Positions 9,443 through 45,176 of a stretch of DNA of 64,000 bases are shown in pieces. Where the stretch lies: the NCBI RefSeq assembly GCF_017355915.2, contig NZ_JAFEUV020000006.1, positions 1 through 64,000 on the forward strand, written 5' to 3'. The stretch is from Telluribacter roseus (GTDB taxonomy: Bacteria; Bacteroidota; Bacteroidia; Cytophagales; Spirosomataceae). Numbering within the stretch: position 1 is the first letter of the stretch; every line of letters starts with the position of its first letter. The notes under the pieces are model-generated. The model was not told the origin of the DNA. It searched no databases and was given only the letters and a program-made list of their open reading frames with translations. Made by a program: the position numbers and the translations under genes.

Positions 9443-9594
9443 GCTTTAGAGAGGTTGTCTCCTTAATGTAGAATATGACTATTTTAAGGAAACGTTCTTG
9501 GATAACTTTAAGTTTAAAATCCTCAAAATGATAGTGTAGAGGCATCAGGTCTTAAACAAAAGCTTACTGAAGGCAAGAGGGCAGGGTATAATCA

Positions 9595-9633
9595 GGTAAA
9601 GAGGGAGAGCCTCAACAGCTCTCCCTCTTTACC
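9595..9633 (-). terminator. terminator downstream of the 1222-residue kinase
   Basis: A perfect 16-base stem (9595-9610 with 9618-9633, 7-base loop), G+C-rich in its middle. It lies 25 bp after the stop of the kinase gene at 9658 and so likely ends that transcript, separating it from the next kinase gene. Confidence 0.75.
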
Positions 9634-9657
9634 ATTTCTCTGTTTGGCAGAAAGCAG

Positions 9658-13326: not shown

Positions 13327-13406
13327 AAAGGGAAAATCAGCATAACATAACGATCACAGGCTATACCTCCACAATAGATATGTGCCTGATAAGGTGATTG
13401 TTGAAA

Positions 13407-13414
13407 CAAAGGTA
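13407..13414 (-). promoter_or_regulatory. -7 box (TACCTTTG) for the 1222-residue kinase
   Basis: Minus-strand match to TAnnTTTG about 80 bp upstream of the ATG at 13326, in the intergenic gap after the next kinase gene. No clear -33 partner. Confidence 0.45.
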
Positions 13415-13513
13415 AAAAAATGAAAGGTTGTACCTTATCATGGTCTATATTCTGCTGTATCATCAGCCGAATATCCTCATGCCAAGTAGATTAACGTACT
13501 AGTACCGAAGTTG

Positions 13514-16500: not shown

Positions 16501-16660
16501 GATCCCTGCCTACCAGCTCTTCTCTTGGTATACCCGTAGCGGTTACAACTCCATCGGTAACTGCCAGTATAGTAAAGTAGGGGGAGTTGGGCCGTAAAAG
16601 GGTACTAATGCCAGGCATAGCTTCGAAAGCAGCTCTGAAATCTACCGAGGTATCTATCAC
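13514..16660 (-). CDS. multi-PAS sensor histidine kinase (1048 aa)
   Basis: A soluble kinase with six PAS domains (about 5-140, 150-275, 285-400, 415-530, 540-655, 670-790), then HisKA with phospho-acceptor His824 in SHHDLQEPIRK and HATPase_c with NALKFSKPD, DNGIGFD and GTGIGLAL. Several PAS domains are internal near-duplicates: the phrases RYLDFVYQPYYD, RYVNFSYNPYRE and LYINFVYEPFHE occupy the same position in three of them, showing expansion by tandem duplication. The first PAS domain is clearly paralogous to the first PAS of the neighbouring 1222-residue kinase (both begin with VNFRAAFE/VDFRAAFE and AMPG/VMPG). Its own promoter box lies at 16733. No regulator is linked. Confidence 0.92.
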   Translation of the reverse strand: MIDTSVDFRAAFEAMPGISTLLRPNSPYFTILAVTDGVVTATGIPREELVGRDLFEVFPGNPEDTTGEQEARASLDYVLTHKKPHQLPLLRYDIPNDEGTYDERYWKVHRKPVLDSQGEVLYIIHTSDDVTEQIKAEQREAKIKDIERVYNFFMQAPVIIAIVKGPEYTIELANKDMLFLWGRGPEVIGKPLLEAIPELEHQGFIPLLDRVRETGEPFYAYESPSTLIRDGKEEVRYLDFVYQPYYDNPSDTVATGVIGMAHDVTEQVLARQRVEEVNERLDFRNALFEAENEVTPDGVLIVDPKGNMVLHNRRFAEIWDIPQEVTDTKDRKAALRHALTMVADPQTFLSNTEQVYAGNHEKAYDEVLLKDGRVIERRGTRIIAESGVNYGWAWYYRDITDRIRQEQKFRNVVEQASDPILILKGEDLVLEVANQALLELWQVGSDAINKPFLEILPEMKDQVFVGLLLNVLRTGEPFYGNETPAVFKRRNGNLETRYVNFSYNPYREADGTITGVLVMANDVTGQVMAKQQLVESERNFRNMILQSPVAMCILKGSSFTVEIANDRMFELWGRGADELLHKPIFEGIPEAREQGLEDLLIHVYTTGETFRASERPVNLPRGGKVETLYINFVYEPFHEGDGSISGIMAVAIDVTDQVLARHETEVKNKELQFVLDFIPQLVWHTLPDGRSDFFNQTYLDYAGLPTEQLLGNGWLDILHPDDRETTTRVWQTALTGSGSYAVEHRLRSRDGSYHWFLTRGVPLKDEQGQIIKWYGTSTDIQEQKTVAELLESRVEERTRELLEANNSLRRINAELEQFTYVSHHDLQEPIRKIQIFTEMVRSDSYDKLTAASQKRLDRVTAAAERMSAALKDVLNYASLNKEEQPEQVDLNEVLETVQTDLEVVISEKQASISVAVLPTIRAVPRQMHQLFYNLLNNALKFSKPDAQPMITITSQKAHPSQVWEQPDLDNSKDYYEIAVSDNGIGFDQDYENKIFLMFQRLHSKDAYAGTGIGLALAKKVALRHGGKIWAESREGEGAVFKVLLPANE

Positions 16661-16732
16661 TGAACTATTAAATTACTAAGTGGTAAAGGGGGACTAAAAT
16701 AAGTATTATCTGCTTACAAATGTTTGAGCTTT

Positions 16733-16740
16733 CAAATATA
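16733..16740 (-). promoter_or_regulatory. -7 box (TATATTTG) for the 1048-residue kinase
   Basis: Minus-strand match to TAnnTTTG 73 bp before the ATG at 16660. It suggests that this kinase is transcribed separately from the kinase upstream, which ends at 16775. Confidence 0.5.
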
Positions 16741-16774
16741 AATAAACCACTGACCGACTGCGTAACGGGTAACG

Positions 16775-19462
16775 TCAGGATACAGGTAAGTATACCTTGA
16801 AGGTGGCTCCCTCATCAAGCTCACTTTCGGCCGTTACGTACCCTTTGTGGTTCTCGACGACTTTCCGTACGATCGATAATCCTACTCCGGTTCCTTTGTA
16901 TTCTACCTTGCTGTGCAGGCGCGTAAATACATTGAATATCTTATCAGCATCCTTTTGCTCAAAGCCGATACCGTTGTCCCGTACTGTTATAAAATAAAAT
17001 TTCTTCTGCTGCTCGGCGGCCGGCAGGGGGAGTCCGGTTTCCTTTCCATAGAGGGTGGTGCATCGTACTACTACCTCAGGGGCTACGTCCGGCTTGCTGT
17101 ACTTGAGGGCGTTGCCGATCAGGTTATGAAAGAGCTGACGTAGCTGCCGCTCATCCCCATTCATGACAGGTAGCCTTTGTATGTCCAGGACAGCGTTCTT
17201 CTCAATAACAGTAGCCTCCAGATCACTGACTACCTCCTCTACCAACTGGTTGATATCTACCTCCCCGAAGGTAGTAGTACCCAGGGTGGCATTGGAGTAG
17301 TCGAGCAGGTTATGGATCAGCGCCCGCATCCGACCTGTAGTGGCCTGAATCCGCTCGATGATCTGGGCATTGCGCTCATCCAGCGCGGAGCCCAGATTGG
17401 ACTGCAGGAGGTCAAGGAAGAAGCTGATCTTGCGCAGGGGCTCCTGGAGGTCATGGGAGGCCGCGTAGGCAAACTGCTGCAGTTGCTCATTGACTACGCG
17501 TAGCTCTTCGGTCCGTTTCTGAACCAGTTGTTCCAGCTCTTCGGCACTCCGGCGCAGGGCCTGTTCCGCCTCTATTTCCAGCGTAATATCCCGTACTTCA
17601 ATGACCGTTGAGACGGGTACACCATTCTCATCAAAGATAGGGCTGGCCGCGCAGGTGACCGGGAAGGAGGTACCGTCTTTCCGGAAGAACAGGTCACGGT
17701 GGGCGCGCACGTCAAAGTTTTCGGGTAAGGCCCGGTCAATGGGGCAATCTTCCATCGGGTAGAAAGAGCCATCAGGCCGGTGGTGGTGAATGAGGTAGTG
17801 CAGTGGCTTCTGCCGGATCTCCTTCTGCGTAAAGCCGAACATTTTCTCTCCTCCCACATTCATGAACGTACAGTACCCGGTCTTGTCCATCATGAACAGA
17901 GTGGCCGTCGCGTTGTCGGTCATGGTACGGAAGAGGAGGTTCTGGTAGTTAATAGCCTCCTTGTCCTGCTTTTCTTTGGTAATATCCCGCTGCACGCATA
18001 CCAGCATGGTTTTGCCTCCGCTTTCGATGGAGGTAATGTGCGAGTAGGTATAAAAGTCGGTGCCGTCTTTGCGCCGGTTGTGCCATTCGCCGTTCCAGTA
18101 GCCGTGCTCCTGGATATGGGCTAGTACATAGGTTACCTTCTTTTGATTTTCTTCCGGGGTATAGGCGTTCTGGACCGTTACATGCTGGCCTACCAGTTCG
18201 CCCGGTTCGTAGCCAAACATACGGTCCTCGGCCGTATTAGTAAAAAAGATAAAGCCGTTCTCGTCGGATACCGACACCCCTTCCTCCATACTTTCCAGCA
18301 CTCTGGATTGCAGCTTCAGGGAGCTCTGCAGCTCTATAAACTCGTGGATATCGGTACAGGTACCTACCCACTGTACTATGTCGTTGCCTTCCCGGATGGG
18401 TACGGCCCGGGTGATGTGCCAGCGGTACTCACCATCCCGACGGCGGTACTGGAGTTCTACCTCGTAGGGTACCCCGTGTTCGAGGCTGTACTTCCACTTG
18501 TCGAGTACTTCGGCTTCTACCCCTAGTGATAGCACATTCGTCCAGCCGCTGCCAAGGGCTTCGGGTTCGGTCTGGCCGGTGTACTCGTACCAGCGTTCGT
18601 TGAGGTAGTCTACCTCTCCGGTGGGGCGGGCGGTCCAGGCCATCTGGGGGAGTGACTCCAGAATCGTACGCCGCAGGGCCTCCTGCTTTTTTCGTTCGGT
18701 AATATCCCGGAAGTACCAGGCCCAGCCGTAGGAGGCGCCATCATCCGCTACCACGGGTACACCATTACGCTCTATGACCCGGCCATCCCTGAACAGGATC
18801 TCATCGTAGCTTTTTGCTTCGTTGCTATTGTACAGGTGGTTGATCCTGGTCATGAAAGCCTGCGGATCGTCCAGTTTGGCCATGGCATACTCTACGGCCG
18901 CAAAGTCGTCCTGATGGTCCAGAACAGACTGGGGGATATCCCATATTTCAGCAAAGCGCCGGTTGTGGAGGAGTATCTTGCCGCGGGTATCGACAATCAG
19001 TACTCCGTCGGGGGTAGCTTCGCTCTGGGCTTCCAGTACGGCCGCCCGGAAGCGGAGCTGGTAGTACGTTTCGTCGCGGTACTTGCGGGCAAGTACGAGC
19101 TCTGTTACATCAGTACCCGTACCGATAAATCCTTCTATTACTCCTTTTTCGTTGCGTAGCGGATCGTAGGAGAAGTTGATGTAGAGGGTTTCCTTCACAC
19201 CGTTGCGTATAAGCTCGACGGGCTGCTCTTTGGCCTTATAAGACTCTCCCTCACAAACGACCCGGTATAGTATCTGATCAAAGCCCTGGCTCAGTAGTTC
19301 GGGGAAAACCTCGAATGCGGGTTTGTGCATGACCTCCTGCCTTGTTTTACCCCATAGCTCCAGCGCCAGGTCATTGGCTAATTCAATGGTGTATTCATTG
19401 CCGCGAAATACCCCCACGGCTATCGGGAGTTGCATGAGAAGAGTGAGGGCCTGTTGATCCAT
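16775..19462 (-). CDS. multi-PAS sensor histidine kinase (895 aa)
   Basis: The fourth and most divergent kinase of the array. It has five PAS domains (about 5-125, 135-260, 270-385, 390-515, 525-645), a coiled linker (EELEQLVQKRTEELRVVNEQ region), HisKA with His670 in ASHDLQEPLRK and HATPase_c with NALKYSKPD, DNGIGFE and GTGVGLSIV. The kinase core belongs to the phytochrome-like ASHDLQEPL group, a slightly different subtype from its three neighbours (SHHDLKEPI). The second PAS (EATPDGVLIVDTRGKILLHN) is nearly the same as the third PAS of the 1048-residue kinase, so sensory modules have been shared between paralogues. No transmembrane segment, receiver domain or partner regulator is visible. 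Confidence 0.92.
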   Translation of the reverse strand: MDQQALTLLMQLPIAVGVFRGNEYTIELANDLALELWGKTRQEVMHKPAFEVFPELLSQGFDQILYRVVCEGESYKAKEQPVELIRNGVKETLYINFSYDPLRNEKGVIEGFIGTGTDVTELVLARKYRDETYYQLRFRAAVLEAQSEATPDGVLIVDTRGKILLHNRRFAEIWDIPQSVLDHQDDFAAVEYAMAKLDDPQAFMTRINHLYNSNEAKSYDEILFRDGRVIERNGVPVVADDGASYGWAWYFRDITERKKQEALRRTILESLPQMAWTARPTGEVDYLNERWYEYTGQTEPEALGSGWTNVLSLGVEAEVLDKWKYSLEHGVPYEVELQYRRRDGEYRWHITRAVPIREGNDIVQWVGTCTDIHEFIELQSSLKLQSRVLESMEEGVSVSDENGFIFFTNTAEDRMFGYEPGELVGQHVTVQNAYTPEENQKKVTYVLAHIQEHGYWNGEWHNRRKDGTDFYTYSHITSIESGGKTMLVCVQRDITKEKQDKEAINYQNLLFRTMTDNATATLFMMDKTGYCTFMNVGGEKMFGFTQKEIRQKPLHYLIHHHRPDGSFYPMEDCPIDRALPENFDVRAHRDLFFRKDGTSFPVTCAASPIFDENGVPVSTVIEVRDITLEIEAEQALRRSAEELEQLVQKRTEELRVVNEQLQQFAYAASHDLQEPLRKISFFLDLLQSNLGSALDERNAQIIERIQATTGRMRALIHNLLDYSNATLGTTTFGEVDINQLVEEVVSDLEATVIEKNAVLDIQRLPVMNGDERQLRQLFHNLIGNALKYSKPDVAPEVVVRCTTLYGKETGLPLPAAEQQKKFYFITVRDNGIGFEQKDADKIFNVFTRLHSKVEYKGTGVGLSIVRKVVENHKGYVTAESELDEGATFKVYLPVS

Positions 19463-22474: not shown

Positions 22475-23626
22475 ATGAGCAATCGTAAAAACGTTGCCAT
22501 TGTATTCTTTGATGCTGCGTCGGGACATCGCTCGTCGGCGGTAGCCCTGGAAAAAGCGATCCGGCAACGGCGCCCTGATTGGAACGCCCGGGTTGTTAAC
22601 ATCACCGAAGTCTTTGACTATCATCCTCCCTTTGGCCGTATTGTGCACAGGGGCATCAACTACTTCAACTGGATGATCAGGCGGGACCGAGTGTTTGACC
22701 TGAAAGGGCTGATCAATCTGTCGCTGCTGTGCCATGATCTGGTGGGACAGAAGGGGCTGGAACGGATTAGTGAATACTGGAAAGGCTTCGTACCCGACGT
22801 AGTGGTATCCGTGACGCCCATGTACAATCCGGTGCTGTACCGCAGCGCCCGTCTGGCCAATCCGGGGGTACAGTGTGTTACCATCCCGGTGGACTTCGAG
22901 GAGGCCAAGCCCCGGTACTGGTTTACGCCGCTGATCGAGCAGCACTACCTCAACGCCACGCCCCGCCTGTCGGAGCAGGCCCGGGCGGCCGGTATACCCG
23001 ATCGGTACATCCACCCCATCGGCGGCATGATAGCCGACCCGGATTCGTACCAGGAGCGGCATCTGGATAAAAAGGCTGAGTTGCAACGACTGGGACTCAA
23101 CCCGGAACTACCCACTGGGTTTGTCTCCTTCGGGGGGCAGGGGTCGGCCATTGTACTGGATATAGCCAGAGAGCTGGCCCGGCAACGGCTGGAAGCCAAC
23201 ATTCTGTTTATGTGTGGTAAGAATGAAAAGCTGTATCAGCAACTATCCGCTCTTGACACACCGTACCCCAAGGTAGTGTTCAGTTACCTCAAAGAAACGC
23301 CCATTCACTACCAGCATCTGGCGGATTTTGCGGTAGGTAAGCCCGGCGCCATGACCATCACCGAAGCTTTGATTACCCATACCCCCATGCTGGCCATTGA
23401 GAGCCGGGGCATGAAGCCGGTGCAGAAAGGCAATGAAGAGTGGATCAGAGAGTCGGGGACCGGTAGGGTAGTGAAGCGGGTAAAAGACCTGGTACCGGCT
23501 ATCCGGGAGGTACTTGGCGATCCTGCCATCCGTGACACTATTCAACGCTACCGACATACAGCTATTCTGGAAGCGCTGGATAAGATAGAACTGATCATGC
23601 AACTCAAAGAACCCTATACTATATAA
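22475..23626 (+). CDS. MGDG-synthase-like glycosyltransferase (GT28 fold)
   Basis: A 383-residue cytosolic glycosyltransferase of the GT-B type related to monogalactosyldiacylglycerol synthase and processive diacylglycerol glucosyltransferases. The N-terminal domain opens with the family signature DAASGHRSSA (residues 13-22). The C-terminal nucleotide-sugar domain shows VSFGGQGS and VGKPGAMTITEAL (around residue 288-299), the region that binds the nucleotide sugar. It is predicted to transfer a sugar from UDP-sugar to a lipid acceptor. It is the first gene of a tight operon, only 13 bp before an isoprenoid synthase fusion, so the acceptor may be a terpenoid alcohol instead of diacylglycerol. 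A near-miss promoter box (TATTTTG, 22452-22458) lies 17 bp upstream. Confidence 0.85.
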   Translation: MSNRKNVAIVFFDAASGHRSSAVALEKAIRQRRPDWNARVVNITEVFDYHPPFGRIVHRGINYFNWMIRRDRVFDLKGLINLSLLCHDLVGQKGLERISEYWKGFVPDVVVSVTPMYNPVLYRSARLANPGVQCVTIPVDFEEAKPRYWFTPLIEQHYLNATPRLSEQARAAGIPDRYIHPIGGMIADPDSYQERHLDKKAELQRLGLNPELPTGFVSFGGQGSAIVLDIARELARQRLEANILFMCGKNEKLYQQLSALDTPYPKVVFSYLKETPIHYQHLADFAVGKPGAMTITEALITHTPMLAIESRGMKPVQKGNEEWIRESGTGRVVKRVKDLVPAIREVLGDPAIRDTIQRYRHTAILEALDKIELIMQLKEPYTI

Positions 23627-23639
23627 TATTTCTACTACT

Positions 23640-25928
23640 ATGTCTGTTCCCGTAAACCCTGATCCGAGTGCCGAAGTACAAGCTACACCTGTAATTGATT
23701 CGTATCCCAGCGACTGGCCCGATAGCGGCCCCATTGATCTGCAGGTACATGATCTGCCGCATGATTCGTCCACTATTGAGTGGTGGTACCAGAATGCCCA
23801 CGTAGCCAGTACCACCGGGCGTACCTTTTCCCTGTTTGCCTCCTTTTTCCGGATGGCCATTGGGCGGGATGAAGTGACCAGGCAATTTACCTACGCGCAC
23901 TCCATTACCTGGGCGCTGGTGGATGTGGACAACCAGACCTACCTGATGGACTCGGTTGTAGACCAGTGTGCGCCGGTGGAAGGTTTGAAAATGATCGAAA
24001 GAGGAAAAGATACGGCCGATAAGCTGCTGCAGCGGGCCCTGAAGGAAGTATTTGAGAAGGGCAACGTACCCCACCCGGACCGCATGCTGCTAGCCCCGGC
24101 CCTCGTCAATAAGACAACGCTGGACCTGGTGTACGACGCCAACCGGTTCAGAAAGCGGGACGATGGCACCTATCAGCTCATTCTGGATCATCCGGAGCAA
24201 GGTATAGCGGCCGAGCTGATATTTACGCCGCTGATCAGCCCGGTGCGCCACGGTGACAATGGCGTGGTAAAGGGCACCGGTGGGGAGGATATGTTCTACT
24301 ACTTTATTCCGCAGTGTGAAGTACATGGTACCATTACGACTCCCGACCAGCAGGTGCACGAGGTAGAGGGAAGCGGCTGGTACGACCACGAGTTTGGTAA
24401 GCCTACCAATGAGAATCCTGACGTGGACATCCACCACGATATCGCCTGGAACTGGGTATCGCTGCAGCTCAGCAACGGTTACCAGGTGTCGGGCTACGAC
24501 CTGTTTGATAACACCAAAGGGGGCGAAGGCTGTGGCCGCTGGGCTATCGTCATTGACCCGGAAGGAAACAGCCGTAATATCACCGACTTTAGTTTTACAC
24601 CCACCGAAATCTGGACCAGTTCACGTACGTTCACCCGCTACCCCACCCGTTGGCAGCTCCAGATCCCTGAGCTGGGGGTAGACCTGCGGATTCGGGCGGA
24701 GTTTCCGGAGCAGGAGTTTATTACCATCATATCCAAGCCAGCCTTCTGGGAGGGGCGCATTCGGGCGGAGGGTACCTTTGACGAAGGGGCCGTTACGGGT
24801 CTTGGCTTTATCGAGCGAAGTGGTTTTGCCAACATTGAAAAGCTGGAGGATTTCTTCAAAGCTGTCACCCGCGAAACCCGCAAATCGGTGGAGGCCATGC
24901 TTCCCCTGGAACCTACCGACGAGCAGTTTCTGCGACTGGTGGCCAGCGAGCCCAACCGGCACTTCCTGAATGGCCTAGATAAGGAGCGCTACGTGGAGCG
25001 GGTCATCCGCCCCATTCGTGAGATCATCGACCGCGGGGGCAAGTGCTGGCGCTCCTATGCGGTACTGGCCTGTATTGATGTAGTGGGTGGAAACTCGCAG
25101 AATTTTATGGACTGGCTGGTGTGGCCCGAGCTGCTGCATACAGGTTCGCTCATTATTGATGATGTCCAGGACCGCTCAGCTATCCGCCGGGGCGGACCTT
25201 CCTGCCACGAGGTACACGGCGAGGCGCTGGCCATTAACGCCGGTAATGCCTGCTACTTTATCGGTCAGGTACTTATGCTGGACGACCGCCTGACGCCGGA
25301 GCTGAAGCTGAAAGTATACGAGCTGTACTTCGAAACCATGCGGGCTGCTCACGCCGGACAATCCATTGACATCAGCGGCTTCTACGACCTTATGCCGGGG
25401 GTAGTGGAGAGTGGTGAAAGTCAGGAACTGGAAAAACGGATCCTGGGCGTACACCGCCTGAAGTCGGCCGTGCCGGCCAGTATGCTGGCCGAGCTGGGCG
25501 CTATGCAGGGGGGAGGTAGCAAGGAACAGGTAGCCGGGCTGGGTGACTTTTTTGAGGCCCTGGGGCTGGCGTTCCAGATCATCGACGACGTACTGAACCT
25601 GCGTGGCTTCAAGAATGACCTGAAAGACAAGGGCGAGGACATTACCGCCGGAAAGATAACCCTACCCGTGGCCCGGGCCATGGCGTACCTGCCCCACCCG
25701 GATCGGGAGTGGCTATGGCAGACGGTAAACTCAAAGCCCAAGGACCGCGAAACCATCGGGGCGGTGATCGAAAAGCTGGAAGCCTGTGGGGCCATTGACG
25801 CCTGTCAGCAGCAGGCCGAAGGGCTGGTGGAGGAGGCCTGGAAAAGGCTGGATAGACTGGTACCTGACTCGGCCGTTAAGATTCGCCTCCGGGCCTTTAG
25901 CTGGTACGTGCTGAACCGTCACTACTAA
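23640..25928 (+). CDS. AttH/CrtC-like domain fused to isoprenyl diphosphate synthase
   Basis: A 762-residue two-domain enzyme. Residues about 30-390 match the AttH/CrtC (carotenoid 1,2-hydratase, lipocalin-like) pattern, with EWWY (47-50), SGWYDHEFG (245-253) and WNWVSLQLSNGYQ. Residues about 420-762 are a trans-isoprenyl diphosphate synthase: the substrate loop GGKCWRS (466-472, normally GGKRLRP), the first aspartate motif DDVQD (507-511) with RRGGPSCHEVHG after it, and the second motif DDVLN (649-653), in which the last Asp is Asn as in eukaryotic-type GGPP synthases. It should make a prenyl diphosphate (perhaps GGPP), with the N-terminal half acting as hydratase, cyclase or other modifier. 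No phytoene synthase or desaturase is nearby, so an ordinary carotenoid role is unlikely. Fusion is direct with no stop or frameshift. Confidence 0.9.
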   Translation: MSVPVNPDPSAEVQATPVIDSYPSDWPDSGPIDLQVHDLPHDSSTIEWWYQNAHVASTTGRTFSLFASFFRMAIGRDEVTRQFTYAHSITWALVDVDNQTYLMDSVVDQCAPVEGLKMIERGKDTADKLLQRALKEVFEKGNVPHPDRMLLAPALVNKTTLDLVYDANRFRKRDDGTYQLILDHPEQGIAAELIFTPLISPVRHGDNGVVKGTGGEDMFYYFIPQCEVHGTITTPDQQVHEVEGSGWYDHEFGKPTNENPDVDIHHDIAWNWVSLQLSNGYQVSGYDLFDNTKGGEGCGRWAIVIDPEGNSRNITDFSFTPTEIWTSSRTFTRYPTRWQLQIPELGVDLRIRAEFPEQEFITIISKPAFWEGRIRAEGTFDEGAVTGLGFIERSGFANIEKLEDFFKAVTRETRKSVEAMLPLEPTDEQFLRLVASEPNRHFLNGLDKERYVERVIRPIREIIDRGGKCWRSYAVLACIDVVGGNSQNFMDWLVWPELLHTGSLIIDDVQDRSAIRRGGPSCHEVHGEALAINAGNACYFIGQVLMLDDRLTPELKLKVYELYFETMRAAHAGQSIDISGFYDLMPGVVESGESQELEKRILGVHRLKSAVPASMLAELGAMQGGGSKEQVAGLGDFFEALGLAFQIIDDVLNLRGFKNDLKDKGEDITAGKITLPVARAMAYLPHPDREWLWQTVNSKPKDRETIGAVIEKLEACGAIDACQQQAEGLVEEAWKRLDRLVPDSAVKIRLRAFSWYVLNRHY

Positions 25929-25947
25929 GAGCCGCGCATCAGAGGTT

Positions 25948-28230
25948 ATGGACTTTATACCGGCTGCTCTGCAGGATCCGGCTACCGTATGGGGGATATT
26001 CCTCCGGGGACTCGGACTGATCTACTTTATTGCCATTGTGCAGTTGTACCACCAGGTACTACCGCTGGCGGGCTCGATGGGTATATCATCCCTTGGGCCC
26101 CGGCTGGCGCAGATCCGGCGCGACTACCCCGGCTGGCGCAAGTGGCTGTACTTCCCGACGCTGCTCTGGCTCAGCCACAGCGACCGCTTTCTGAAAGGGC
26201 TGGTGGTACTGGGGAGCGTATCGGCGCTGGTGGTGCTGTACGGCGGGGCATTAGCGGGACCGGCGCTGCTGGTATGCTGGCTGGTGTACCTGTCGTTTGA
26301 CCTGCCCCTGTCGCTTTCGTACCCCTGGGACTGTGTATTGCTGGAGGCAGGTTTTTTGGCCCTGTTCCTGCCGGGATTACATCATCTACCTGATGTATCG
26401 GTGACGGCGCTGCCGCACCCGGCCGTAGCCTGGGGCTTCCGTTTGTTGATGTTCCGGCTGATATTTGGGTTTGGGAAGTTCAAGTTCTGGAAGTCCAATC
26501 CGCGCGATACCGGGTACTTCCGGGCGTTTATGATCAATATTCCGTTGCCTGCTTATCCGGCCTGGTACCTGTACCGCCTGCCAGGCTGGTTCTTTCAGGC
26601 TGTGCTGGGGTTTAGTTTTGTGGTGGAGGTAATAGCGCCCTTTTTTATCTTCTCTAGTAGTGAGCTTCGGCTGGTGGCGGCTCTGCTCATTAGCCTGCTT
26701 ATGGTGGGTATTCAGGCTGTCAGCAACTTTGGATTTTTCAACATCCTGACCATCGTCCTCTGTCTGCCGCTGCTGGATATACAGTCGTCTATCTTCGACC
26801 TTCGGGTGCAGGACCTGTACATGACGCCCGGTCATGTACTGACCAGTGTAGTCATGCTTGTACTGGTAGTGGGAGGCTTCCTCAATTTCTTCTTCAATAC
26901 CTGGTGTACCTTTACCTGGATGCACTGGCCCACGGCGCTCTTTATAAAATCCCGCTTCATGGCGGGGATGCTGAGCTTTTACCGGGCACTTGTTCGTTTT
27001 CGTATCACCCATTCCTACGGCGTATTTCCGCCATATAGTACGCCGCCTATCAAGCTGGTGCCCGTCATCGAAGGGAGCCAAGACGGTGTGACCTGGGAGC
27101 CGTACGAGTACCGGTACATCACTACCTCCGAGCATACGCCACCCCGCTTTGTAGCGCCCTACCATCCCCGCTGGGACCACGCTATCTTCTACGATGCCTT
27201 CGGGACCAACGACGCCAACTATATGTGGGGCGTAGTAGGCACCGGCAATCCCTACGATTTTACCCACGCTACCTCCCTAGAGGAGGTACTGCAGCGGATC
27301 CTGGAAGGAAATCAGGAAGTACATACAATTTTCCGGACGGTACCTTTCCCGGCAGAGGAGCCACCTCGGAGCGTGCGGGTAATGCTGTACCGTTTTCAGC
27401 CTGCTACTCCGGCTGAACGTAAGAGTACTGGGCAGTGGTGGGTGAAGAAGCTGGCTGGCCTCCACCTGCCGCCGCGCAGTCTGGATCCGGCTATTCAGAA
27501 AAAACGTTCTACCCAGCCGGAGCTGTTCCATTTTGATGCCGTATTCTGGCGTCGGTGGAGCCCGCGGATGCAGGAGCTGGACCGGATAGGAAGGGCGGGG
27601 CTGCCCGAGCTGGTACGGACTAACGCCGGGGAGGGGATAAACCTGCCTGCTAACTACTTCTGGAACCAGTTTCTGCCGGGTCTACGGCCCGATGTGCGTA
27701 ACTGGGAGGAGCTACCGGAGATAGTAGAGCAGCTCAAAGCGCAGTACAGCTTTGACCAGCTATGCGACCTGGAGGTGGTGTGGTATCGGCTGGTGCTGAT
27801 GCTGGCCGCGCGATTGGAACCTCACTACCTGGGGCAGCAGGCACCTCAGCTGAAGATAGAGACCTATTTCCACTTCGGCCTGTTCCTGAATCATATAGTA
27901 GGGAAGGGGCAGGAGGCCTACGAGCGGGTACTACGGTACCCGGCCGAAGCCGTTGACCATCTGGCTGACTTTGCCCCTGAAAGCGGTTTTTACTTCAACG
28001 CTATTTTCCGGTTCGATACGCAGGTATTCCACGCCCGCAAGCTACGCTGGCTGCGTCAGGTACAACCCGACTATACCGAAGAGGTAATTCCCGGCTTTGT
28101 ACGCCTGATCCCGTTCCTGAGTGAGCAGTTTAGAGGAATGGGCGAAGAGAACTGGCCCCACATGCACCGACGGCCCGACAACGGCGAGTGGGTAATCGAA
28201 GAATCCGTCGAACAACGCACCTACGCTTAA
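25948..28230 (+). CDS. lipase maturation factor (LMF)-like polytopic membrane protein with extra C-terminal domain
   Basis: A 760-residue protein beginning 19 bp after the prenyl synthase fusion. Residues 1-340 contain about eight membrane helices, with the LMF family marks DLPLSLSYPWDCVLLEAGFL and FGFGKFKFW (about 173-181). A soluble LMF domain follows with WEPYEYRY (383-390) and APYHPRWDHAIFY (403-415). Beyond residue about 500 there is an extra region of some 250 residues, rich in aromatic residues and helices, that I do not recognise. In animals LMF1 helps lipases fold, and bacterial functions are not established. In this operon it may be a membrane enzyme or a scaffold acting on the prenyl product. 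That is inference from position only. Confidence 0.8.
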   Translation: MDFIPAALQDPATVWGIFLRGLGLIYFIAIVQLYHQVLPLAGSMGISSLGPRLAQIRRDYPGWRKWLYFPTLLWLSHSDRFLKGLVVLGSVSALVVLYGGALAGPALLVCWLVYLSFDLPLSLSYPWDCVLLEAGFLALFLPGLHHLPDVSVTALPHPAVAWGFRLLMFRLIFGFGKFKFWKSNPRDTGYFRAFMINIPLPAYPAWYLYRLPGWFFQAVLGFSFVVEVIAPFFIFSSSELRLVAALLISLLMVGIQAVSNFGFFNILTIVLCLPLLDIQSSIFDLRVQDLYMTPGHVLTSVVMLVLVVGGFLNFFFNTWCTFTWMHWPTALFIKSRFMAGMLSFYRALVRFRITHSYGVFPPYSTPPIKLVPVIEGSQDGVTWEPYEYRYITTSEHTPPRFVAPYHPRWDHAIFYDAFGTNDANYMWGVVGTGNPYDFTHATSLEEVLQRILEGNQEVHTIFRTVPFPAEEPPRSVRVMLYRFQPATPAERKSTGQWWVKKLAGLHLPPRSLDPAIQKKRSTQPELFHFDAVFWRRWSPRMQELDRIGRAGLPELVRTNAGEGINLPANYFWNQFLPGLRPDVRNWEELPEIVEQLKAQYSFDQLCDLEVVWYRLVLMLAARLEPHYLGQQAPQLKIETYFHFGLFLNHIVGKGQEAYERVLRYPAEAVDHLADFAPESGFYFNAIFRFDTQVFHARKLRWLRQVQPDYTEEVIPGFVRLIPFLSEQFRGMGEENWPHMHRRPDNGEWVIEESVEQRTYA

Positions 28231-28245
28231 TGCCCGGAACCGCCT

Positions 28246-29136
28246 ATGAAATCAGTAGTTTTGCCCAACGGGCTATCCGTTCAAGCCTTCAACCGGCTGG
28301 AGCCGCAGGTGCTCTACCATGAAATATTCGCCACCGAAGCCTACGCCAAGCATGGTATCGTAGTGCATCCTGGCGATTGTGTATTCGATGTGGGGGCAAA
28401 TCTGGGCTTGTTTTCTATCTACCTCGCCCAGCACTATCCGGACCTGACCATTTACTCCATTGAGCCGGTGCCCGCCATGTTTGAGCTGCTGCGCCACAAC
28501 GCCGCCCGACACGTAGCCCCGGCTGCCACCTCGCACCTGCTGAACATCGGCCTCTCCAATGCCTCCCGCACCGCCACCTTTGCTTATAACCGCATTCTGA
28601 GCATGACGGCCGGTATGTACTCCAAGGAGCTGGAGGCTGGCGTCGACCGGCAAGCTACGGCGTATGCCTGGGTGCAGGCCATGGTGGCTGACGCGGCCCG
28701 GGCTGGGCAGCTCAACGCCCGAGCGGCGCGCGGCCTGAATCGGCTGCTGGCCACGCCGGGACTTCGTCTGCCGGTACTGGTGCTGCTGTCTGTGCCGCTG
28801 CTGCTGCTCCTGGGTTACCTCAAGCGTAGCACCAGGCAGGTAGCCTGCCAGCTACGCACCCTGTCGGAGGTGCTGCACGAGCAGCAGGTCGCGCGGGTAG
28901 ATCTGGTGAAGATCGATGTGGAAGGCGGCGAATGGGATGTACTGCGCGGCGTGCACGACGACGACTGGCCCCGCCTGCGGCAGCTCGTCATTGAGGTACA
29001 CGACCTGCACAACCGCGTGGCAGACATGACGGGTTTCCTGCAGACCCGCGGCTACGAAGTCATCGTCGATCAGGAAGATTGGAGCCTGCACCGGCTTATG
29101 CGCATCCACACCCTGTACGCCCGCCGCGTTGACTGA
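28246..29136 (+). CDS. FkbM family methyltransferase with a membrane insertion
   Basis: A 296-residue SAM-dependent methyltransferase. The SAM site is seen as VFDVGANLGLFSIYLA (about residues 46-61), with the acidic IEPVPAMFELL strand after it, and the FkbM C-terminal signature VDLVKIDVEGGEWDVLRG near residues 220-237. FkbM enzymes usually methylate hydroxyl groups. Unusually, a hydrophobic stretch LPVLVLLSVPLLLLLGYL (about 175-192) is inserted between the two halves, which could tie the enzyme to the membrane near the LMF-like protein. It starts 15 bp after that gene. The sequence around it is markedly G+C-rich. Substrate is probably the terpenoid product of the operon. Confidence 0.85.
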   Translation: MKSVVLPNGLSVQAFNRLEPQVLYHEIFATEAYAKHGIVVHPGDCVFDVGANLGLFSIYLAQHYPDLTIYSIEPVPAMFELLRHNAARHVAPAATSHLLNIGLSNASRTATFAYNRILSMTAGMYSKELEAGVDRQATAYAWVQAMVADAARAGQLNARAARGLNRLLATPGLRLPVLVLLSVPLLLLLGYLKRSTRQVACQLRTLSEVLHEQQVARVDLVKIDVEGGEWDVLRGVHDDDWPRLRQLVIEVHDLHNRVADMTGFLQTRGYEVIVDQEDWSLHRLMRIHTLYARRVD

Positions 29137-29302
29137 ATCGCTGTCATGGGCTAAGCACGGAGTGCACCGCTACGACCTGGAGCAGTTTGGGTTTACCAAA
29201 GAACAGATTAATCATACGTATAAAGTGTACATAGAGCGGTTAGGCCCCGAAGCTGATGAGCCAGCGGTGCCTAACTACCGAATCATAAAAATATATGAGT
29301 AA
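29129..29302 (+). CDS. small ORF, possible remnant of a sulfotransferase C terminus
   Basis: A 57-residue frame, +1 relative to the methyltransferase gene, running from TTG at 29129 (or GTG at 29162) to TAA at 29300-29302. It overlaps the methyltransferase stop and the first codons of the next P450 (the shared string is ATGAGTAA), an arrangement that suggests translational coupling. The residues HRYDLEQFGFTKEQINHTY resemble the C-terminal tail common in bacterial sulfotransferase-family proteins (pattern: h-Y-LE-FGLs---i---f--Y). No catalytic PAPS-binding region is present, so it may be the leftover of a lost gene or a C-terminal extension shifted out of frame. The family suggestion is from memory and weak. 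Confidence 0.4.
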   Translation: MTESLSWAKHGVHRYDLEQFGFTKEQINHTYKVYIERLGPEADEPAVPNYRIIKIYE

Positions 29303-30641
29303 AAAGCCCTCCTTACAAAGTCCCGGTACCCGCGAGACTAAGGAATTGCTAAAAAAGCACCCTCAGCAAGGCTGGGTGGAGCTGGTACAGAAGTACGGCA
29401 ACAGCTTTGTGTACCAGGGCAGCCTGGCTACCTGTGACCCGGTGGTGGTACAGAAGCTGTTGATGAACCGGTCCCATACCCGTAAGCGCTCGGCCGTTTA
29501 CAAGCTGATGGCCCGGATTATACCGGGAGCACCGGGCGTACTGTTTATGGATGGGAAGGAATGGCACCAGCATGTACAGGCAGTGATGCCGGTATTTACC
29601 AAAGCCCACGCCGATGCCCAGGCTCGTACCATTCATGAGACGGTAAAAGGTCGAGTACAGCAGTGGCCGGAGGGGCAGCCTCTACGCGACCTGTTCCAGT
29701 CTATCGTGGAGGTAGGGCTGCGGGTGGTGCTCAAGGTAGGCTATGGACTGGACCCCGACCAGGAACTGGCGGCTCGCTTTGGATACGAACTCATGGATTA
29801 CAAACGGCAGACCATGACTGCTACCGCCCGCCTGGATGAATTTGGCTTTTCGTGGGATCAGCTAAGGCAGATACCAGCCTTCATCAGAGAAAGGCGGGAG
29901 TGGCGGAAGCAGGTGGACCGGTTGCAGGGCCTGGTGAAGCAGATTCTGGAAGAACGCCAGCGGAACAACCACCATGGGCATGACTGGATTTCGCTCATGC
30001 AGAAAGGGGGTTTCTCCCTGGCCGAGGTAACCGACGAACTGAATCATATCTACGGCGCCTTCAACGCCATTGATTACGCCATTACCTGCGGCCTGTATGA
30101 GCTCAGCAGGCAGCCGGACTGGGCCAGGCGCATCCGTCATGAGTTGCATGGCGTACTTGGTAGCAGGGAGTACCCGACGCGGGAAGACTTCGACCGCCTG
30201 CCTGACACCATCCACTTCATGAAGGAGGTATTCCGGTACTATCCGGTAGCCATAGCCGTGATGCGCCGCACCGGTGAGCCCTTACCGGTAGAAGGTGGCG
30301 AATGGCCGGCCGACCAGGAGGTACTCATTCTGCTGCAATCTATGCACCACCACCCCGACTACTGGCACCAGCCCGAGGTATTCAACCCGGATCGCTGGAG
30401 CCAGCCGATGCGTGAGCCCCAGGCCTATATTCCTTTCCTGACCGGGCCGCGTCAGTGCATCGGGCGGCACCTGGCCGAACTGCACTTTGTCGTCACCCTC
30501 AGCGCTATTCTGCGGTATGCTGATATACAGGTTCTGGATCACGATGTGCCGCTGCTGCCTTACCTGATTCCCCGCTTTGCCGAGCCTATACCATTCCGGA
30601 TACATACTTTACAGCCGTATGCCGAGTCCAAGGTTCAGTAA
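29295..30641 (+). CDS. cytochrome P450 (first of two paralogues)
   Basis: A 448-residue soluble P450. The heme loop is FLTGPRQCIG with axial Cys388, the K-helix ExxR is Glu311-Arg314 (EVFR), and the PERF-like region is FNPDRW. The I-helix segment reads YGAFNAIDY (253-261) where most P450s have AGxDT or AGxET. The acid-alcohol pair that helps protonate and split oxygen is therefore absent or replaced, which suggests an unusual reaction or an alternative proton route. There is no N-terminal membrane anchor. No ferredoxin or reductase gene is in the operon. It probably oxidises the terpenoid made by the upstream enzymes. Confidence 0.9.
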   Translation: MSKKPSLQSPGTRETKELLKKHPQQGWVELVQKYGNSFVYQGSLATCDPVVVQKLLMNRSHTRKRSAVYKLMARIIPGAPGVLFMDGKEWHQHVQAVMPVFTKAHADAQARTIHETVKGRVQQWPEGQPLRDLFQSIVEVGLRVVLKVGYGLDPDQELAARFGYELMDYKRQTMTATARLDEFGFSWDQLRQIPAFIRERREWRKQVDRLQGLVKQILEERQRNNHHGHDWISLMQKGGFSLAEVTDELNHIYGAFNAIDYAITCGLYELSRQPDWARRIRHELHGVLGSREYPTREDFDRLPDTIHFMKEVFRYYPVAIAVMRRTGEPLPVEGGEWPADQEVLILLQSMHHHPDYWHQPEVFNPDRWSQPMREPQAYIPFLTGPRQCIGRHLAELHFVVTLSAILRYADIQVLDHDVPLLPYLIPRFAEPIPFRIHTLQPYAESKVQ

Positions 30642-31971
30642 GCCGAAGGGGCCGGGCGTGCGGGAGGCACAACGGCTTATACGAACCCATAAAAACAGAG
30701 CCTGGGTGGAGCTGGCGCTTCGGTACGGCAAGAGCTTCTTCTACCAGGGTACTCTGGTGACCTGCGACGCCCAACTGGTAGAGCAGCTACTGATGCAGCG
30801 GGTACACACCCGTACGCGCTCCATCGTATATAAGAAGCTAAACCAGATCATTCCCCTGGCGCCGGGACTGCTGTTTATGGATGGTGAGCCCTGGCAGCGA
30901 CGTCTGGAGGCGGTCATGCCCGCGTTCACCAAAGCCCGGGTCGATACCTATGCCGGCTACATGCACGACTGTATCGTCAGCTACGTGGAGCAGTGGGGGG
31001 CCAGCACTGCCATCCCTGATTTGTACCGTGAAATTGTAAATCTGAATGCGGAGCACCTCTTCCGGGCGGGGTTGGGGCTGGACCCGCAGACTGAACATGC
31101 GCGGGAGCTGGGCCAGGCACTGATTGACTTTAAATTTGATCTGATGGATCCAGATGCCCGGCTGGACTGGTTTGGTTTTTCGGAAAATCAGCTCCGGCGG
31201 TTTCCGGCCTTTCTGAAGGCGCAGTGGCGCCGCAGGCGCAAAGCCGGGCAACTACGCAGGGCGGTAGAACGGGTAAGTACTTCTGAGGTCGGCAGCTACG
31301 CACAGGGGCTAAACTGGATACATTGCCTGCGGGAGACCGGATTTACCAATGAGGAAGTGACCCACGAAGTGAATCATTTGTACGGAGCCTACAACGCACT
31401 GGATTACGCTTTTACGGGTGCCTTCTACGAGTTGAGCAGGCATCCTCAATGGGCGTTACTACTACGTAACGAGCTAGCGGAAGTATTGGGGCCGGAGGGG
31501 TACCCCACGCGCGATACCTTCCAGGCACTGCCCCATACGCTCCGCTTCATGAGGGAGGTATTCCGCTGCTATCCGGTTTCGATGGGGGTGTCGCGGCGGA
31601 CGGGGGAGGAGCTACGAGTAGGAGAGCTGACGCTGCCGGCCGGGCAGGAAGTACTGATTCTGTTACACGCGCTCCACCACCATCCCGACTACTGGGACCA
31701 GCCCGACACCTTCGATCCGGACCGCTGGAAAGAGGAGCCACGTTTCCCTTACGCCTACGTTCCTTTTCTGAAAGGGCCCCGCCACTGTATCGGACGGCAC
31801 CTGGCCGAGCTCAATTTTGTACTGGTACTAAATGCCATACTGCAGCGCTTTGACATACAGGTACATGATCACGAAGTACCTCTGGCACCGTATATGATGC
31901 CCCGATTTGAGCGGGAGCTGACCTGTACAATGGCCCGGCACAAAGAGCCATGTCCGGTAAAGATGAAGTAG
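30619..31971 (+). CDS. cytochrome P450 (second of two paralogues)
   Basis: A 450-residue P450 whose ATG at 30619 lies inside the end of the preceding P450, overlapping it by 23 bp. A longer frame from 30577 has no support. Heme loop FLKGPRHCIG with axial Cys390, ExxR as Glu313-Arg316 (EVFR), FDPDRW region present. As in the first P450 the I-helix is non-canonical: YGAYNALDY (255-263). The two proteins are alike along their full length (same FVYQG/FFYQG start, PGLLFMDG, GLDP and HHHPDYW blocks), so they arose by tandem duplication and then diverged. It is the last gene of the tightly packed operon that starts at 22475. Confidence 0.9.
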   Translation: MPSPRFSKPKGPGVREAQRLIRTHKNRAWVELALRYGKSFFYQGTLVTCDAQLVEQLLMQRVHTRTRSIVYKKLNQIIPLAPGLLFMDGEPWQRRLEAVMPAFTKARVDTYAGYMHDCIVSYVEQWGASTAIPDLYREIVNLNAEHLFRAGLGLDPQTEHARELGQALIDFKFDLMDPDARLDWFGFSENQLRRFPAFLKAQWRRRRKAGQLRRAVERVSTSEVGSYAQGLNWIHCLRETGFTNEEVTHEVNHLYGAYNALDYAFTGAFYELSRHPQWALLLRNELAEVLGPEGYPTRDTFQALPHTLRFMREVFRCYPVSMGVSRRTGEELRVGELTLPAGQEVLILLHALHHHPDYWDQPDTFDPDRWKEEPRFPYAYVPFLKGPRHCIGRHLAELNFVLVLNAILQRFDIQVHDHEVPLAPYMMPRFERELTCTMARHKEPCPVKMK

Positions 31972-32074: not shown

Positions 32075-32986
32075 ATGAAACCGCTACTATCTGGTACCTG
32101 GATAGTGATTGTATGCCTGGCTACTTATGGGCTGGTTGTGGCTGGTAAAGTACAAGCTGAAGAGAGTGACAAGGCCCCTCCATACCGGGGTATTTACATC
32201 GATAAATTCACTACCATTCTGGGGAATGCCAGCCGGGAAGATTCGGTCCTGCGCTGGTGCGTGGGGCATGGGTTCAATGCCATTAGCCTGTATGATCTTA
32301 AAGATATAATAGGGCGTCCAGGCGCGCAGGACAGCCTGGCCCGCTTTATCCGAAAGGCACGGCTGGACTACGGTATAGCTGAGATAGCGGCGGTGCGAGG
32401 CATTGAGCAGGATTATGAACAGACGGCGCAGTATGACCAGTCGCGCTATGAGCCATCGGAGCGCTTCACGGCCTATAACCTCGAAAACGAATGGTGGAAT
32501 GGGGGGCCTGATTGCGATTTTGGCTGCTATACGCGTATTCTGGAGCAGATGCAGCGCCAGGCCCGCGCGACCACTCCTCCAAAGACTACCGAAGCCTACA
32601 TCGGCTGGTTTATCAATCCGGATCAGCAGGAGGCGAAGCAGGCCAGGACGCTGGTCAGGCACCTCGACCGCATCATGGTGCACGCGTATAGAAAGGTACC
32701 AGAGTTTGGGTACTTACGTGAGCGCCTGATGTACCTGGGGCAGGAGGCCCAAAAGCAGAACCGGACGCTGGATGTCATCGTTCTGTTCAGTGCAGAGCCG
32801 GAGTTTATGGCCGATTACTACCGGGTAACGGATCAGAACCATACCTTCGAGGCGTCGTACCAAAACCTGGTGGATCAGTTTACGAAGGCGGACTTTGACG
32901 GAAAGGCCAATATCCGTTTGATTGGGTACCAGTTGTTTGCCTATACCTTTGCCAGTGCTGCCCGTCCGCACATCTCAAAGCAGTAA
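32075..32986 (+). CDS. exported protein of unknown function
   Basis: A 303-residue protein with a signal peptide or N-terminal anchor (WIVIVCLATYGLVVAGKVQA). I do not recognise the family. The mature part starts with YRGIYIDKF and shows regularly spaced strand-helix units (GFNAISLYDL, YGIAEIAAVRG, TEAYIGWFINPDQ, IMVHAYRK, LDVIVLFSAEPEF), which looks like a TIM barrel of the glycoside-hydrolase-like kind, with candidate acidic residues in NLENEWW and FSAEPEF. It begins 103 bp after the second P450 and could be read from the same transcript or stand alone. No gene symbol is justified. Confidence 0.75.
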   Translation: MKPLLSGTWIVIVCLATYGLVVAGKVQAEESDKAPPYRGIYIDKFTTILGNASREDSVLRWCVGHGFNAISLYDLKDIIGRPGAQDSLARFIRKARLDYGIAEIAAVRGIEQDYEQTAQYDQSRYEPSERFTAYNLENEWWNGGPDCDFGCYTRILEQMQRQARATTPPKTTEAYIGWFINPDQQEAKQARTLVRHLDRIMVHAYRKVPEFGYLRERLMYLGQEAQKQNRTLDVIVLFSAEPEFMADYYRVTDQNHTFEASYQNLVDQFTKADFDGKANIRLIGYQLFAYTFASAARPHISKQ

Positions 32987-33035: not shown

Positions 33036-33938
33036 ATGAGACACATCAGCCGAAAAGAATTCATAAAGGACCTGTCGCTGCTGGCGGGGATAGCCGCGCT
33101 ACCGGGTATGGCGCAGGCTACCCCGGAGTATCTGAAAGCTTCCAAGATGAAGCTGGGCATGGTAACCTACCTCTGGGGCAAAGATATGGATGTCCCTACG
33201 CTGATCAGGAGCTGTTCGGCGGCCGGTATTGGTGGCGTAGAGCTGCGTGTAGACCATGCGCACGGCGTAATGCCCCACCTGTCGGCGGCGGAGCGGAAGG
33301 AGGTGAAGAAGCGGTTTGCGGATAGTTCGGTGAAGGTAGTAGGTATGGGTACCAACCAGCAGTACGACTACCCCGACCCGGCGAAGCTGCGCGATTCAAT
33401 AGAGAAAACGAAGGAGTTCGTTAGGCTAAGTGCGGATGTAGGAGGATCGGGCGTGAAGGTAAAGCCTAATCAGTTTCACAAGGGCGTCCCGCACGAGCAG
33501 ACCATTGAGCAGATTGGCAAGGCGCTGAACGAACTGGCCAAGTACGCGGCGGACTTTGGACAGCAGATCCGCCTGGAGGTACACGGCAACGAAACGCAGG
33601 ACCTCCCCAACATCAAGGCCATGATGGACGTAGCCACCCACCCTAATGCCACCGTTTGCTGGAACTGCAACCCCGAAGACCTGAAAGACGGAGGACTGGT
33701 GCATAACTTCAACTTGGTTAAGGACCGCTTCGGGGATATTGTACACGTGCGCGAGCTGAACGATACCAGCTATCCGTACCAGCAGCTCATGGATCTTTTT
33801 GTGGGCATGAACTATGATGGGTGGATCTTGCTCGAATGCCGCACCGACCCTGCCGATAAGATACAGGCGCTCACGGAGCAGAAGAAGATATTCAATAATA
33901 TGGTAGCCAGTGCTCAGAAGAAAACGGGCCGGGGCTAA
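33036..33938 (+). CDS. secreted xylose-isomerase-like TIM barrel (second copy)
   Basis: A 300-residue member of the sugar phosphate isomerase/epimerase superfamily with a Tat-like leader (SRKEFIKDLSLLAGIAALPGMAQA). Barrel strands appear as KLGMVTYLWG, GIGGVELRVDHAHG, VKVVGMG, GSGVKVKPNQF, IRLEVHGNE (metal-binding Glu and His), VCWNCNP, IVHVRELND and GWILLECR (Glu). It differs clearly from the first copy at 19740, so the two probably handle different steps or sugars. It converges on the META-domain gene and is close to the Gfo/Idh gene at 34586. Location is likely periplasmic. The reaction is inferred by family. Confidence 0.85.
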   Translation: MRHISRKEFIKDLSLLAGIAALPGMAQATPEYLKASKMKLGMVTYLWGKDMDVPTLIRSCSAAGIGGVELRVDHAHGVMPHLSAAERKEVKKRFADSSVKVVGMGTNQQYDYPDPAKLRDSIEKTKEFVRLSADVGGSGVKVKPNQFHKGVPHEQTIEQIGKALNELAKYAADFGQQIRLEVHGNETQDLPNIKAMMDVATHPNATVCWNCNPEDLKDGGLVHNFNLVKDRFGDIVHVRELNDTSYPYQQLMDLFVGMNYDGWILLECRTDPADKIQALTEQKKIFNNMVASAQKKTGRG

Positions 33939-44666: not shown

Positions 44667-45176
44667 ATGAAATCTATCAAAAAGAAATTAACCGCTGATA
44701 TCGCCAGTGCTTTGGAAGGCAAGCTGGGTGATATAGACACCAATGCCAAGAAAGTAAAGAAAGCGGTTGAAAAAGCAGCCGAAAAGCTGGCTAAGAAGGT
44801 ACTTAAGCTAAAGAAGGAAGAGGAGAAAGATAAGGAGAAAGATCAGAAGAAAGCCAGGAAGAAGGAAGAGGATAAAGAAAAGAAAGCCCAGAAAAAAGCG
44901 ACTAAAAGGCTGGAAAAGGTCCAGAAGAACGCAGCAAGGGCTGCGGGCAAGAAATCTAAAAAACAAGCAGTAGAGGCGGTGTCTCCTGCGGCCGTAACAC
45001 TGGCAGCCGAGTCAGCAACGCTGGCAGCTCCTGCCCGAACTTCACGAGCGGCAGCCCCCAAACCTGCTGCTACCCGTGGTCGGGGCACTGCTGCCGGTCG
45101 TACCAGCAAAGCCACATCGGGTGCCAACGGGTCAGACAGCCAGGCCGAGCAGCCGGTCAATAATACAGAGCAGTAG
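44667..45176 (+). CDS. lysine/alanine-rich histone H1-like protein
   Basis: A 169-residue highly basic protein of low complexity. Residues 1-55 are predicted helical and coiled with KKVKKAVEKAAEKLAKKV, residues 55-105 are almost solid Lys/Glu/Ala charged repeats (KDKEKDQKKARKKEEDKEK type), and the C-terminal 65 residues are Ala/Thr/Pro/Ser-rich with isolated Arg and Gly (ATRGRGTAAGRTSK). This resembles bacterial histone H1-like DNA-binding proteins and suggests nucleoid or nucleic-acid binding. It could also be a membrane-associated low-complexity protein. It is encoded between a methyltransferase and a cupin gene. Low-complexity sequence makes homology assignments unreliable. Confidence 0.75.
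   Translation: MKSIKKKLTADIASALEGKLGDIDTNAKKVKKAVEKAAEKLAKKVLKLKKEEEKDKEKDQKKARKKEEDKEKKAQKKATKRLEKVQKNAARAAGKKSKKQAVEAVSPAAVTLAAESATLAAPARTSRAAAPKPAATRGRGTAAGRTSKATSGANGSDSQAEQPVNNTEQ

Follow-up and report, generated by a model that had tools for sequence, protein, structure and literature searches.

A compact group of six genes occupies positions 22475-31971 on the plus strand of a 64,000-nucleotide stretch of Telluribacter roseus DNA (contig NZ_JAFEUV020000006.1, positions 1 to 64,000), referred to hereafter as the window. Inspection of the open reading frames (ORFs) of the window found all six genes closely packed and in place, as the initial annotation had described them, and each of their products scores above the cut-off of some Pfam family. 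The first gene encodes a GT28-type glycosyltransferase of 383 amino acids (aa; 22475-23626) and is followed by a gene for a 762-aa fusion of a CrtC/AttH domain to a prenyl diphosphate synthase (23640-25928), a gene for a 760-aa lipase-maturation-factor (LMF)-like membrane protein (25948-28230), a gene for an FkbM-family methyltransferase (28246-29136) and the genes of two cytochromes P450, P450a (448 aa, 29295-30641) and P450b (450 aa from its ATG, 30619-31971). The ATG at 30619 is the likelier start of P450b, a TTG at 30577 being also possible. Intergenic gaps measure 13, 19, 15 and 158 bp, and one pair of genes overlaps. A 57-aa ORF (29129-29302), previously taken to fill the 158-bp gap, was rejected as a gene, given that the interval is shortened in a genus-mate and the frame that remains there is interrupted by stops. 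Pfam scans of 35 window ORFs of at least 140 aa (those at 778-1278 and 44667-45176 being left out) recovered no terpene cyclase, squalene-hopene cyclase, UbiA-type protein or phytoene synthase, in agreement with the initial annotation; none of the enzymes by which canonical terpene clusters are recognized (a cyclase of class I, of class II or of the UbiA type, or a phytoene synthase) was thus seen among these ORFs. With somewhat better than even confidence, we interpret the six genes as a conserved operon for a tailored (oxidized, glycosylated and mostly O-methylated) C20 terpenoid.

Genes for the glycosyltransferase, the fusion, the LMF-like protein and the paired P450s recur together in four genomes from two orders of the class, namely that of the window, a genus-mate (G001), a member of another genus of the same family (G1127) and a member of a different order and family (G556). 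This five-gene core is present in all four operons found and the FkbM gene in three of them. The possibility, raised at the outset, that the fusion, the LMF-like protein and the P450s never co-occur in other genomes was thereby dismissed. The genus-mate keeps the six-gene order, with protein identities of 90, 92, 87, 95, 87 and 84%, and the ratio of nonsynonymous to synonymous substitution rates (dN/dS) between it and the window lies between 0.06 and 0.14 for all six genes, which are under purifying selection between these congeners. In G556 the order GT28-fusion-LMF-P450-P450 is that of the window without FkbM (identities of 42, 54, 38, 41 and 45%), and in G1127 the glycosyltransferase gene has moved, giving the order fusion-LMF-FkbM-GT28-P450-P450 (63, 46-63, 53, 53, 61 and 54%). 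Its recurrence in three genomes besides that of the window takes the gene set beyond chance, and the six-gene operon is confirmed as a real and conserved one. The LMF-like gene of G1127 (L180:10492-12785), a genome assembled in one contig, consists of two overlapping ORFs split just past a conserved GFGKxKF segment, which reflects either an error of sequencing or a genuine break in the gene.

Among 59 genomes (that of the window and 58 relatives), a full fusion together with an LMF-like protein occurs solely in the window genome and in the genus-mate. Across 395 genomes of the class, five, including that of the window, have a strong match to the CrtC/AttH half (E <= 5e-121) within a frame of at least 695 aa. 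In a phylogenetic tree, the fusions of the four operons group at 89/89, which is not strong support, and form a 95/95 set with two solo fusions, from Flavobacterium and from genome G083.

Both halves of the fusion are recognized by Pfam (polyprenyl_synt 9e-44, Lipocalin_9 4e-24, CrtC 6e-19). An AlphaFold2 model built from 14 sequences (the window protein and those of 13 contig loci) reached a predicted local distance difference test score (pLDDT) of 87.8 and a predicted template modeling score (pTM) of 0.87. Its C-terminal half (residues ~402-762, 24843-25928) matches the folds of geranylgeranyl diphosphate (GGPP) synthases and of longer-chain prenyl synthases, including GGPP synthase 1WY0 (Z score 36.2, 324 residues aligned, 2.3 A). 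The motifs DDxxD (507-511) and DDxxN (649-653, DDVLN in the window) were located, and residues D507, D508, D511, R516, R517, K608, Q646, D649 and D650 are invariant in both alignments of the fusion (16/16 rows of alignment A5 and 14/14 of A6), so that the DDxxD motif with its RR pair, the second DD motif and the active-site Lys and Gln of trans-prenyl diphosphate synthases are all present. Small residues preceding the DDxxD motif go with chains of C20 or longer, and the fusion has G502 and S503 there. The C-terminal half is proposed to be a GGPP synthase.

The N-terminal half (residues ~34-400, 23739-24839) carries the CrtC and Lipocalin_9 domains and is predicted to adopt the two-barrel, lipocalin-like fold of the CrtC/AttH superfamily. 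Its best fold match is AttH of Nitrosomonas europaea (2ICH; Z score 35.0, 303 residues aligned, 2.7 A), a stand-alone protein deposited as a putative AttH with which it has WxD and WxW motifs in common, and the Nectria haematococca kievitone hydratase (7A0Q) is also matched (Z score 32.1, 300 residues aligned, 3.0 A). According to PMC6013536, kievitone hydratase hydrates a prenyl double bond, and PenF and AsqC, which both rearrange epoxides, likewise contain a CrtC domain. The fungal enzyme is, however, secreted, unfused and only 17% identical to the window protein, and it acts on prenylated isoflavonoids.

The carotenoid 1,2-hydratase CrtC of Rubrivivax gelatinosus (RgCrtC) has the same Pfam domains (PF07143/PF17186) as well as the Asp donor and the three Trp positions. 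Mutation of D268, W110, W283 or W285 in RgCrtC lowers or abolishes its hydrating activity, which extends to C12-C20 terpenes, for example geranyllinalool (25%) and geranylgeraniol (4%); terminally hydrated prenyl units are reported to give a fragment at m/z 59 (PMC12402844). In PMC4717167, His239, Trp241, Tyr266 and Asp268 of CrtC are described as essential and compared with squalene-hopene cyclase; by analogy, the window protein may protonate a terminal prenyl bond without a cofactor, as CrtC is described to do there and in PMC12402844. When a profile of the fusion was aligned to an annotated CrtC encoded on a Roseobacter plasmid, D249, W270 and W272 fell in register with RgCrtC D268, W283 and W285 through the G(W/Y)xD and WxW motifs, albeit at a weak profile score. 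W49, which lies outside the CrtC profile alignment, is in our own reading the likely counterpart of W110. Position 249 is Asp in 14/16 and Glu in 2/16 rows of A5, and Asp in 11/14, Glu in 2/14 and Gln in 1/14 rows of A6; W49 is found in all 16 rows of A5, and W270 and W272 in 15 of them. The predicted fold, the retained residues and the CrtC-domain relatives support an acid-started chemistry on a prenyl group. They strengthen the earlier suggestion that the CrtC/AttH half may provide the cyclizing or hydrating step.

The pathway that we infer for the operon, with its C20 chain length, its product and the sequence of its reactions, would run as follows. The C-terminal half of the fusion would condense isopentenyl diphosphate with an allylic diphosphate to give GGPP. 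The CrtC/AttH half, acting in cis, would then protonate the far end of the prenyl chain by means of D249, and the resulting cation would end either in the uptake of water, giving a tertiary alcohol at the chain terminus, or in ring closure; because the cation would be ended in one of these two ways, the CrtC/AttH half could take the place of the missing cyclase, hydration being likelier than cyclization. The two P450s would oxidize the scaffold, the GT28 enzyme would glycosylate it and FkbM, where present, would O-methylate it. Finally, the LMF-like protein would contribute a further membrane step, either as a catalyst or as a carrier or scaffold.

The distribution of the fusion is far wider than that of the operon and includes Bacteroidota, Myxococcota, Cyanobacteriota, Actinomycetota and others. 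In a scan of genome contigs, at least 13 loci among the best 80 of 561 confirmed candidates span both halves, and these belong to Bacteroidota, Myxococcota, Pseudomonadota, Actinomycetota, Planctomycetota and a metagenome-assembled genome (MAG) of Methanoculleus. A tblastn search of plasmids matched 272 records, three of which span 80% or more of the query (two from Tolypothrix and one from Streptomyces canus). Seventeen fusion loci, comprising the 13 both-half contig loci, one partial locus and the three plasmids, were searched with the other operon proteins and none had a homologue (tblastn, E <= 1e-3; some loci are cut by contig ends). The absence of homologues is to be read as the absence of these particular subfamilies, since tblastn with the window glycosyltransferase missed the EryCIII-type GT28 proteins of two loci (L047 and L055). 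Matches to P450b in 10 of the 13 fusion genomes were taken to be generic P450s. Also, no confirmed relatives were recovered from viral contigs scanned with the LMF and fusion alignments.

Other tailoring genes accompany the fusion at three of the 17 loci (L047, L049 and L055). On a plasmid of Tolypothrix sp. PCC 7712, a single frame of 1509 aa (L047:12655-17184) joins sulfotransferase, GT28, CrtC/AttH and prenyl synthase domains. In Membranihabitans, a gene for an EryCIII-type GT28 protein lies 34 bp downstream of the fusion. GT28 enzymes therefore accompany the fusion in three different arrangements, in two lineages beyond the operon. A related prenyl synthase whose N-terminal half is diverged is encoded on a plasmid of Nitrosomonas stercoris (L049:14365-19081) next to a flavin monooxygenase and a methyltransferase of the LCM type, and so comes with a tailoring set unlike that of the operon. 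The Polyangium genome has both the fusion and a relatively close LMF protein (34%), and the 19 kb around this LMF gene gave no match to the other window proteins at E <= 0.01. Eight ORFs near the actinobacterial fusions L059, L060 and L065 gave no Pfam match, the frames having perhaps been mischosen in G+C-rich DNA.

Genes for ABC transporters were seen near the fusion at four loci (L047, L048, L056 and L061) and were not used as evidence. Those near the Tolypothrix frame encode an exporter (membrane fusion protein, DevC permease and ATPase) and are accompanied by insertion sequences, and those of L061 include a periplasmic binding protein. In Streptomyces canus (L048) and a proteobacterial MAG (L056) they adjoin the fusion and diverge from it, and possibly serve in export of the product.

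Several of the observations made on the fusion weigh against the terpenoid reading proposed here. Outside the four operons the fusion is usually found without the other operon genes (0/17 loci as described above, and only one, that of G556, of four further loci in the class carries the operon). RgCrtC His239, Trp241 and Tyr266 align with D217, F219 and W247 of the fusion and are not kept. The single-sequence profile match to CrtC being weak (probability 5%, E 0.007), it is the two motifs that anchor the residue mapping. The Polyangium fusion lacks both Trp residues of the WxW motif, and a Streptomyces row (L060) is the one with Gln at position 249 in A6. As one phytoene/squalene-synthase (SQS_PSY) homologue above the cut-off lies outside the operon in all four operon genomes (on contig C22 in that of the window), a carotenoid substrate is possible. 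In such a carotenoid branch, the main alternative, the CrtC half would hydrate a carotenoid end in the manner of true CrtC, the prenyl half would supply GGPP and the tailoring enzymes would complete an O-methylated carotenoid glycoside; the proximity of crtC and a polyprenyl synthetase gene in one photosynthesis cluster of Roseobacter fits this scheme. We nonetheless regard it as unlikely, given that the scan of 35 window ORFs revealed neither a phytoene synthase nor a desaturase nor a lycopene cyclase, that fusing a GGPP synthase to a hydratase would join distant steps of the carotenoid route, and that the active-site pattern, which lacks the CrtC His239 and Tyr266, is nearer to that of AttH. 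As the Asp is kept but the other three residues are lost, the fusion is best described as a relative of CrtC rather than as CrtC itself; it further differs from RgCrtC in being joined to a prenyl synthase and in having no carotenoid genes found alongside.

The tailoring enzymes all belong to recognizable families. The GT28 protein exceeds the Glyco_tran_28_C cut-off (24.5 bits against 22) and is found in all four operons; MGDG_synth is matched below its cut-off, and the NCBIfam diglucosyl-diacylglycerol (DAG) synthase model at 2e-14, far below its own. FkbM matches Methyltransf_21 (1e-17) and, with 93 bits against a cut-off of 37.7, belongs to fkbM_fam. A hydrophobic insert at about residues 173-190 of this methyltransferase, similar in G1127, suggests membrane attachment. 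These features bear on another scheme, in which the operon would yield not a secreted metabolite but a membrane lipid, namely a polyprenyl or isoprenoid one bearing a sugar. That the GT28 protein is closest to diglucosyl- and monogalactosyl-DAG synthases, and that both the LMF-like protein and the FkbM insert have hydrophobic stretches, would suit a membrane lipid, but a rare and patchy distribution (full-length LMF form in 2/390 genomes of the order) is ill-suited to a core lipid and two distinct P450s are conserved as a pair, so that we consider this role of the gene set improbable.

Both P450s match Pfam p450 (2e-46 for P450a and 6e-45 for P450b) and have counterparts in all four operons. 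The residues of the ExxR motif and of the FxxGxRxCxG motif with the Cys ligand are invariant in the eight operon P450s (29295-31971, L140, L162 and L180). The usual acid-alcohol pair of the I-helix is missing from them: in P450a the AGx(E/D)T motif reads GAFNA, with Asn in place of the acid and Ala in place of Thr (HMMER alignments to 7WZL and P450 4B1), and across the eight proteins (alignment A7) the acid position holds Asn in seven and Ser in one, and the Thr position Ala in all. To judge from these residues, their oxygen activation or reaction type may be atypical. Each window P450 is nearer to its own counterpart than to its neighbor in 3/3 other genomes, narrowly so for P450a in G556 (41 vs 37%), and for this reason the pair probably predates the split of these genomes.

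The LMF-like protein exceeds the Pfam cut-offs for LMF1 (89.7 bits against 27; 3e-25) and LMF1_C (75.5 bits against 34.2; 6e-21). Members of the LMF family are known mainly as lipase chaperones. No lipase domain was found by Pfam in the six operon genes. The protein resembles the LMF1/LMF2 family in these two domains and differs from it in being divergent, in its biosynthetic operon setting and in a C-terminal extension of about 250 aa (27490-28227), which is also kept in the operons of G556 and G1127 and gave no Pfam match and, as best PDB sequence match, one at E 0.15. Accordingly, the operon form is 760 aa long (764 in G556), as against 481-564 aa in 17 ordinary relatives. This full-length form was seen only in the four operons. 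In 390 genomes of the order of the window, among which G001 is not included, a full-length profile matched 12 and found the full length in those of the window and G1127 only; G556 alone of five genomes from its own order was matched. The same profile, which recovers its known targets in the order search, matched 0/9 other fusion carriers, and in a single-sequence search 3/13 fusion carriers had an LMF protein, matching residues 13-521 only.

In an hhalign comparison uncontrolled by any unrelated membrane family, the LMF and HTTM profiles matched with a probability of 65% (E 6e-5) for the broadest alignment and of 25% and 0.4% for others. The broadest of these alignments pairs the invariant K179 of the LMF protein with the Lys of AGxxK in HTTM, a segment that in turn aligns with AGVKK of the vitamin-K gamma-carboxylase. 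The corresponding Lys of that carboxylase is its base. Membership of the LMF-like protein in the HTTM/vitamin-K-carboxylase superfamily may be taken from these sequence alignments as a lead only. If LMF proteins were distant members, the LMF-like protein, and not the CrtC half, might act as the cyclase or carry out the first oxidative step on the prenyl chain at the membrane, as its exclusive occurrence with the fusion in the genomes searched, together with the K179 alignment, would suggest. Such a role is quite unlikely, in view of the fall of the HTTM match with the other alignments, the low pLDDT (39.9) of the single-sequence LMF model, and the fusion carriers tested, most of which have no such LMF protein yet retain the CrtC half.

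Proteins that join cation chemistry to a prenyl synthase in one chain are known among the chimeric terpene synthases, and the prenyl half of the fusion matches late segments of copalyl diphosphate synthase (9Q3I/8V0F) and of sesterbrasiliatriene synthase PbSS (9WYX), which we take to be fungal. In contrast to these, the N-terminal half of the window protein is neither a class I nor a class II terpene synthase but a lipocalin-like CrtC/AttH domain. Neither a described pathway with this enzyme set nor an LMF-family protein tied to a terpenoid pathway was found in the open-license PMC literature. Terpenoid clusters are normally found through their cyclase, a rule that a conserved operon of this kind would escape. 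If the CrtC/AttH half does act on the adjacent C20 chain, it would represent a non-canonical fold for terpene hydration or cyclization and a cofactor-free terpene hydratase, and the operon offers a testable handle on the LMF family. A bolder and doubtful extension is that the fusion founds a new class of bifunctional terpene synthases, lipocalin-fold, Asp-initiated (class-II-like) cyclases built on the CrtC/AttH fold, fused to their own GGPP synthase and present in at least five phyla, with the LMF-like protein as a vitamin-K-carboxylase-superfamily enzyme acting on the same terpenoid.

The genes that flank the operon seem ordinary and include those for PAS histidine kinases and sugar metabolism as well as for homologues of MutS and SusD and a TonB-dependent receptor. 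At 0.57-0.58, the G+C content of the operon seems high, but in third-position G+C its genes (0.66-0.76) resemble three genes on its flanks (0.61-0.71); an inference of horizontal transfer from composition was dropped for this reason, and no transfer is claimed. Two downstream ORFs were considered as parts of the operon and set aside, that at 32075-32986 having no match at the genus-mate locus and that at 33036-33938 being kept in the genus-mate but unmatched at the other two operons. The former encodes a 303-aa protein with no convincing family match. Upstream of the operon, four large PAS-domain histidine kinase genes lie in tandem on the minus strand (7346-19462).

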